Shown piece by piece: positions 56,501 to 59,500 of a stretch of DNA of 64,000 nucleotides. A model generated the notes under the pieces. That model was not told the DNA's origin. It saw nothing but the letters and a program-made list of their open reading frames with translations, and did no database searches. Each line of letters begins with the position of its first letter. The first letter of the stretch is position 1. Location of the stretch: positions 501,001 through 565,000 of the forward strand of contig NC_090013.1 of assembly GCF_036417845.1 (NCBI RefSeq). The letters run 5' to 3'. This stretch comes from Apteryx mantelli (taxonomy: Eukaryota; Chordata; Aves; Apterygiformes; Apterygidae). Position numbers and translations under genes: made by a program.

Positions 56501-59500
56501 GTGGTTCGTGAGTCTCTTGAGCTGTTGCACAAGAGAAACCCTGCCTGGAGTCTGCAGCTATGGTGGGAGTAAGATGTATTTCTCCCAACAGTGGTCCCAG
56601 CCCTTTTTCCTGGAGTGAAAAAAAATGATGCCTACAGTTGAGATACTAGTGTTGAGGATGGGAGAAACCTGAGAATTAGCCCCAGGGCCTGAGTCTTGTC
56701 GTCTCCTGGTGTGCAGGAGTGTGGGCCTCCTCTGGAGGGTGCCCTTTGGATGCTGAGCTCCATCCTAGCCAGCAAATTCCATGTCTCCAGACACTCCCCC
56801 GGACCTCCGGATTGTGTAAACATAGATAAACCGGGAGATACTGGCAAGTGGGGGTCGTACAAGATCCAGCTGCCTGCTCCTGCCTGAGCCCCGGGGGTGG
56901 CCACACAGCTCAGGCACCCTCTGGGCCCTGCCTGTTTCGGGAAGGATTTTTTTAATTTGTGGTTGAACTGTTGTTGCAAGATCTGCCACACCTCGGGCAG
57001 CAAGAGCGAGCAGGGCCCTTCCTTCAGCCGAGCCCGCTGCAGCCCCAGGGACTCTTTAGGCACCGGCTCCTGCCCAACCGGTGGGCTTGCACCACGGGAG
57101 CCCCCGTGTTAACGCCCGCCGCCTCGGTGGCCGCGTTCCACCCACGCGATGGATCAGGGCTGAAATCAAATCCGGAGGAGGGTTTCGTACAGCCCAAATC
57201 TGAAGCAGATTCCCAGGTTTAACCATCCCGGCGCAGGGCCGGTCAAAGACGGGGAGCAGCGCAGGTGGAGTGGTTTTCTCCAAGTGAACGTGGTCAGGAG
57301 AGAAACTGTCTCAGTTCTCTCTCAGTGGAAGGAAAGCCACCAGCACTGGCTTGGATTTGGGTAAAGGGCAGCTTTCCTCTCTGTGTTTCACCCTGTGGGA
57401 CTGTTGGTTTATTGTCCCCACCCCGGGGCCCCCCCGTCTTTGCCTGTCTGCTCGGCGCTCGGGCAGGAGCTGCCGACGGGGTTAAAGCCCAGGCGCTGGG
57501 GTGGAGCTGCTGCGGCCCAGGATGTGGCCGGCGCTAGCGGGAAAAGGCTTGAAGTTCAGAGGGAAACACGATCTGGGCCGGGCAGGAGCTGGCCGCGGCC
57601 CATGCCACCCTCCCAGCGGAGATGGCTCATGCGGCTTCATCCCCGCTGCCCTGCTCCGTTCCTGGTGGCTCTTGGAGGGTTTGTCCCGTCCCGGCGCACC
57701 GAGGGATGAGGCTGGCAGTGCTGGGAGCCCGGCAGCCCTGTCTGCGGCAGGGCTCGAGGGAGGTCGCCCGGTGTCCGGCCCTCCGCAGCCTCCTCCAGAG
57801 CCGCTTGCTGCCCCGCGCGGATGGGGAGGGCGCTCGGTTTCCCCGGCTTGTCCTGAGGCTTCGGTGGCAAGGCCAGGAGCGCAGTGCAGGGCTTGCGTGT
57901 GCCGGCACCCCGGGGCGCCCGCCCTGGCACCGCGCGGTGCCCGGGAGGAGGCAGCGTGGCCTGGGAGGGGGCCGCTGCTGCTCCCGCACTGCTTCGTCCA
58001 GCTCTGGCTTGCAGCGGGCTGTGCGCACCCCAGGCTGAACGTCCCGCTTCCCGGCTTACCAGGGCTCCGGCGGCGCTACGGGAGCACCCCTGCTCTCCTG
58101 CCTGGACATTGCATTTAACGGCTGCCACGAAATGCTTTGCCAGGGGTTGGTGTCTTTGGGCTTACCCCCAGGGCAGGACAGGCAGCAAGCCTCGCTGCGG
58201 GGCAGGGGCAGCCCCCAGCCCCCCGCTGCTCCGAACCGCTGGAGCCGGCGGTGGAGCCGGCATCTCTTCCGAGCACGGCTCCTTGGCGTCTCGGTTGCAG
58301 ACGCGCCACTTTCATATTTCAGATTTTCCAGCATTTCCGCCCCCACAGTCTGAAAACCGGCCTGTGATCTCGCCTTTCCCCTTACGTCACCGGCCGCCCG
58401 GCCAGATGCGGCGGGGAGAGGGGGCTGGGCTGCGGCCGAGCCGGTGCTAGAGAGGGGCGAAACGTGGCCCCGGGAACGCCGGAGCCGAGCACGCGGGGCA
58501 GAAACAGGAGACACGAACAGAACTTTATTTGCTGGGCGCCGCGCTGCAGCGGGACGGCAGCCCCCTTACGGTACACGAGCGAAACCCAGGCTTCCTTTGT
58601 TCGGCGCTTTATCGTCCGAGCGAGCCGCGGGGTTACCTGCTCTCCTCAGCCGCTGCTGCAAATTCAATTTACCTCCTTTCCCGTGCCGCCCCCCCGCCCC
58701 CCCCCCCCGAGCCCTTTTAAAGGCTGAAAGAGAAGGAAACGTGTCGAGCTGATAAATGGCGCGGCAGCCCGCTCCCCCCGCGGAGCCCGCGCTGGCTCCC
58801 CCGTCGCGCGGCAGCCCGTTTCCTGCGCGGAGGCCTCTCGGGGGGCGCTCGTCTGGCCCCTCCGCTGCGGGTAATGAGAACCAGCCGCTGCCTATGAATG
58901 GGGCTCTGTGTTCGGCGGGCAGAGCGCTCCCTCCCCCCCGAGCGGCCCGTTAAAGATGAACCGCTGCTTTGCAGGCAGCTCTAGCCAGGCACCCGGCGCC
59001 CCGCTCTTCCAGGCGAGGGGCGATGCCTCGGGGCAGCGTCCCGCCTTGCAGCCGCCCCGCGGCTCTTGCGGCAACGGGAGAGGTTGCACGGGGCGCGGAG
59101 CCACGGGGCGCCGCGCGTTCGGGCTCCGCCGTGGCCGTGCAGCCCCGGGCTCTCGCCGGCGCCCCGTTATGCCTAGCCGCTTCCAGCAATTCCGGCAAAA
59201 CCGTGCGGCGCGGGCGAGCCCAAGCAAAGCGAGCGAATATCCCCGAGAAGGGCTGGATCCGCTGCAGCTCCCCCCTTACCTGAGGCTGCTCGGAGGCTGC
59301 TCGGGCGCTGCTCTGCCAAACCCGATCTAACCAATGTGCAGACTACTGTACAACTTTATACCCTCCTGAACAGGTAGTCTGAACACTGGGCAGGCTGGGC
59401 TGGAGTCCGTCTCCGACTTCCCGGGGCATCCGCGGGGTTTTTCTCCCCCTCCCGGGTTTTTTAATAAGGAGAGAAGCCGATCGGCGAAAGGAAACTGCTT

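Follow-up and report, generated by a model that had tools for sequence, protein, structure and literature searches.

A probable avian mir-199a-1 ortholog antisense to DNM2, with a candidate promoter upstream

A single mir-199 hairpin was found on the minus strand of a 64-kb stretch of DNA (hereafter the window), and it is very probably orthologous to human mir-199a-1, the DNA being from a sauropsid and most likely from a bird. On this reading it is a canonical Drosha/Dicer gene placed opposite DNM2 between the first two exons of the PH domain. This assignment draws on the sequence of the hairpin, its predicted fold, its strand, its host gene and the intron that holds it. The miRNA family has ties to skeletal development, and its DNM2-linked member is documented here in a GC-rich region, of a sort that older bird assemblies often cover poorly.

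A mir-199 hairpin on the minus strand

The precursor and its parts were located as follows.

59319..59400, minus strand: mir-199 precursor, extent of the Rfam RF00144 match (cmscan, 91.1 bits, E 5.7e-20, model positions 1-80 of 80)
59368..59390, minus strand: miR-199a-5p arm, exact against the reference mature sequence, single match in the window
59350..59367, minus strand: inter-arm stretch of 18 nt that holds the terminal loop (sequence and fold)
59328..59349, minus strand: miR-199a-3p arm, exact against the reference mature sequence, single match in the window

The hairpin exceeded the RF00144 gathering score of 60 with the model covered end to end, and mir-199 was the sole Rfam match above any gathering score in the 64 kb. 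Both arms were sought by running the mature miR-199a letters as patterns over the window; these and the hairpin letters used as reference are what we take to be the human sequences. An initial annotation of this DNA had placed mismatch-free copies of both arms opposite DNM2, and each arm indeed matched once, letter for letter and on the minus strand, while none of 100 shuffled sequences contained a match to the arm queries at up to three mismatches. The extent given there (59324-59394) came close to both the span of the arms (59328-59390) and the Rfam extent. An exact search of viral contigs and genome contigs with the 3p arm returned 0 matches, as a vertebrate gene would give.

The minus strand (101 nt) had a folding energy of -37.0 kcal/mol, which was equaled by 0 of 200 shuffles although the z-score was modest (-2.70). 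The 63-nt stretch from arm to arm was predicted to form one hairpin, with 18 nt separating the arms. Each end of the duplex carries a 2-nt 3′ overhang in this fold (pairs 2-60 and 21-42, counted by eye from the dot-bracket string). The predicted ends would be compatible with Drosha and Dicer, as is asked of mir-199 family members, and the folding that the initial annotation had put forward as a check thus yielded the hairpin. Among primary-transcript flank rules are a CNNC motif and a UG at -14; a CNNC starts 18 nt past the 3p end, and no UG was present at -14 in the 5′ flank.

The hairpin is near-palindromic, and miR-3120, opposite miR-214, offers a precedent for a microRNA from the sense strand. 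On the plus strand, here the DNM2 pre-mRNA, positions 59320-59401 scored 45.4 bits against RF00144 and folded at -32.3 kcal/mol (z -2.10), as might be seen if that strand also yielded a microRNA. However, this score is below the gathering score, the fold is weaker than that of the minus strand and was equaled by 4 of 200 shuffles, and complementarity alone would give such a resemblance. We regard a sense-strand product as highly improbable.

Under the preferred reading, of a canonical minus-strand gene, the hairpin would probably be transcribed from its own antisense promoter and not from DNM2. By analogy with the mir-199 family, its primary transcript would be processed by Drosha and Dicer to miR-199a-5p and -3p, which would repress mRNAs through seed pairing. 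Chicken miR-199 has been sequenced, with 3p counts reported far above those of 5p in the text and in four column pairs of one table row. Because the mature arms are probably identical among paralogs, these reads cannot be assigned to the DNM2 locus, and bird miR-199 read counts may combine several loci. Such counts are therefore also consistent with a near-silent copy here, with the DNM3 locus (and DNM1) as the main source of mature miR-199, but the zero mismatches in both arms and the intact fold suggest continued selection, which makes a near-silent copy very unlikely.

The DNM2 host gene and its surroundings

The host gene, on the plus strand, was delimited by the following features.

26519..63095, plus strand: DNM2 coding region, first coding exon to proline-rich-domain exon (20 tblastn segments, query taken as human DNM2)
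56347..56460, plus strand: DNM2 exon 14 (10a/10b counted once), first part of the PH domain (tblastn, splice sites, PDB 2YS1)
56461..60511, plus strand: DNM2 host intron, 4051 bp, phase 0, GT-AG (splice-site letters, reading frame of the flanking exons)
60512..60621, plus strand: DNM2 exon 15, next part of the PH domain (tblastn, splice sites, PDB 2YS1)

Of these two exons, the one upstream is 2868 bp away from the hairpin and the one downstream 1122 bp. Matches from tblastn were retained on the plus strand at E up to 1e-2 and identity >55%, leaving 20 for DNM2 and 18 for DNM1; without this filter, the rows listed also included many low-identity proline-rich matches elsewhere in the window. 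The 20 DNM2 segments follow gene order, and two of them are alternative versions of the tenth exon, at 43899 and 46058. The C-terminal end of DNM2 was not found in the window.

The assembled protein of 844 aa was identical to the sequence taken as human DNM2 in 803 of 848 columns (94.7%), compared with 685 of 858 (79.8%) for that taken as human DNM1; these were the two full-length proteins compared. The PH domain matched human dynamin-2 (2YS1) at 105 of 106 positions and a dynamin-1 chain (3ZYS_C) at 94 of 110, and its PDB scores were 232.6 bits for dynamin-2, at most 219.6 for dynamin-1 and 212.6 for dynamin-3. When all 844 aa were used, dynamin-1 and dynamin-3 were the best PDB matches among the 44 sequences listed, because the sole dynamin-2 chain among them comprises the PH domain; for the same reason, the DNM2 call outside the PH domain rests on the sequence taken as human DNM2. 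Thus, the host is DNM2, as in mammals and as had been proposed from the letters of the sequence. A DNM1 host was ruled out on the two full-length identities and on the PH domain being closest to dynamin-2 in the PDB, and a DNM3 host on the PH-domain score.

By exon count, the host intron is number 15 if exons 10a and 10b are both counted and number 14 if they are counted once. One report assigns human mir-199a-1 to intron 15 of DNM2, in antisense orientation (PMC3430244), while 14 is the number given for DNM3, both for human mir-199a-2 (PMC3430244) and for Xenopus miR-199a/214 in dynamin3.

On the minus strand ahead of DNM2, a QTRT1-type protein of the TGT family is matched across the three minus frames, the segments following the order of the profile between 20931 and 17159 (coordinates converted by hand). 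The mir-199a-1 group is defined as antisense in DNM2, and the near-identity of the flanking PH exons to dynamin-2 together with this QTRT1-type neighbor place the hairpin there. The TGT domain (17159-20931, minus strand) stands head to head with DNM2. Human QTRT1 and DNM2 presumably share one strand, as opposed to the arrangement seen here, so that one of the lineages may have undergone an inversion. In chicken, DNM2 and QTRT1 are tabulated together, among genes near position 90012 of GGA30 in one published table (PMC7990949).

Also upstream, a reverse transcriptase domain (RVT_1) was detected at 15243-15890 on the plus strand, with an exact ATTCTGTGATTCTGTG at 16604; the segment 15243-16619 (plus strand) looks like a CR1-like LINE, judging from this domain and the exact 8-bp tail repeat. 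GC content peaks at 77.5% per 2 kb in the window, and very GC-rich stretches fit an avian dot chromosome. The CR1-like LINE and the GC-rich tracts therefore agree with a bird dot chromosome as the setting. CR1-like elements occur in reptiles as well. A non-avian reptile as the source, under which the microRNA reading would stay as it is, is nevertheless unlikely given the GC-rich stretches and the joint listing of DNM2 and QTRT1 on chicken GGA30. The region upstream of DNM2 further contains dense arrays of GC-rich minisatellites (8103-11820), a Galactosyl_T domain of the beta-1,3-galactosyltransferase type (7078-7650, minus strand, E 4.4e-54), and, at 13762-13777 (plus strand), an RE1/REST core pattern that is the sole mismatch-free match in the window.

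It had been claimed that the mir-199/dynamin pairing predates the split between birds and mammals. For the DNM2 copy this conclusion holds provided that the window comes from a bird, to which the CR1-like element and the QTRT1-type neighbor point. One DNM2 locus does not by itself show the descent by duplication with the dynamin genes that was also proposed. For the pairing in general, antiquity is not new, with human and Xenopus cases in print; since antisense mir-199 genes in human dynamin introns have been published, the DNM2 copy described here is real but expected. None of the literature matches listed mentioned an avian DNM2 mir-199 in its title or the opening of its abstract.

A candidate antisense promoter

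Between the hairpin and the downstream DNM2 exon, we noted one cluster of promoter-like motifs.

59679..59726, minus strand: candidate antisense pri-miRNA promoter, with CATCTG (59726-59721), TATAA (59712-59708) and CAGATG (59684-59679)

The TATAA starts 322 bp ahead of the 5p arm, is flanked by one E-box on each side (CATCTG and CAGATG), and is the single minus-strand TATAA in the 1121 bp from the 5p arm to the exon. The arrangement of E-box, TATAA and E-box was unique among the 36 TATAA sites of the window, for a motif that was chosen post hoc. Likewise under this post hoc choice, 4000 shuffles of the 1121-bp region produced a TATAA in 167 cases, an E-box of this type within 20 bp upstream of it in 3, and such E-boxes on both sides in 0. 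Under a looser rule, by which any CANNTG no more than 50 bp from a TATAA counts, 32 of 3000 shuffles passed for the 1121 bp; for the nearest 500 bp the number was 22 of 3000. In the window, 16 of the 36 TATAA sites pass this rule, so the loose version is nothing out of the ordinary. The cluster thus has the standing of a candidate promoter and amounts to a guess from motifs.

According to one account of human mir-199a-1, its promoter is not clearly defined, and a CpG island is predicted roughly 130-540 bp upstream (PMC3430244). Here, every 200-bp window tried with a start from 59300 to 60220 satisfied relaxed criteria for a CpG island (GC of 0.5 or more, observed/expected of 0.6 or more), and the eight 200-bp windows starting at 60240-60380 failed them. 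Because REST is reported to bind both human mir-199a promoters, an RE1 site was sought upstream of the hairpin. None was present between 59390 and 60511 at up to two mismatches, and matches of that quality numbered 31 in the window versus 25.4 expected by chance. A shared RE1 at this DNM2 mir-199 is not supported by this motif search.

A parallel to the cluster is found at Dnm3os, where reporter assays demonstrated both a conserved, non-canonical TATA box, 25 bp ahead of the human start site, and activation by TWIST1, and where the zebrafish start lies 244 bp upstream of pre-miR-199a (PMC5829070). The two differ in the box itself, which is TATAT there and TATAA here. One possibility, less likely than not, is that a whole antisense gene equivalent to DNM3os resides in the bird DNM2 intron and has a TATA/Twist-type E-box promoter of its own, 322 bp upstream of mir-199a; the promoter and miRNA unit of an ancestral dynamin intron would have been copied with the host, and the promoter kept in the DNM2 unit. 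The candidate promoter offers a specific test of whether the mir-199 loci inherited a common promoter with their dynamin hosts.

Relation to other dynamin-linked mir-199 loci

The evolution of the miR199-214 cluster has reportedly been treated by Desvignes et al. in 2014. Human mir-199a-1, mir-199a-2 and mir-199b are described as lying in introns of DNM2, DNM3 and DNM1, respectively, with 199b antisense, and Dnm3os, studied in mouse, human and zebrafish, is an opposite-strand transcript in a Dnm3 intron in the portions of the report that concern it (PMC5829070). No mir-214 partner of the hairpin was found in 49700-64000, where E values up to 5 were allowed, nor in the rest of the window at gathering thresholds.

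The nearest counterpart is hsa-mir-199a-1 (MI0000242), with which the hairpin has in common the DNM2 host, the strand and both mature arms and, going by exon count, perhaps the intron. Compared with the reference human precursor, the arm-to-arm length of 63 nt and the GGAGG at the start of the loop are shared, whereas the letters of the loop center differ, which bears out the remark in the initial annotation that the loop is unlike the human one. The reference human 199a-2 and 199b, by comparison, measure 61 nt and have neither this length nor the GGAGG. Like mir-199b in DNM1, the hairpin is antisense in a dynamin intron, but the 5p arm of the reference human 199b differs at two positions. Finally, the mir-199a-2/mir-214 unit of DNM3os likewise occupies the opposite strand of a dynamin intron, its host being DNM3 where the host here is DNM2.
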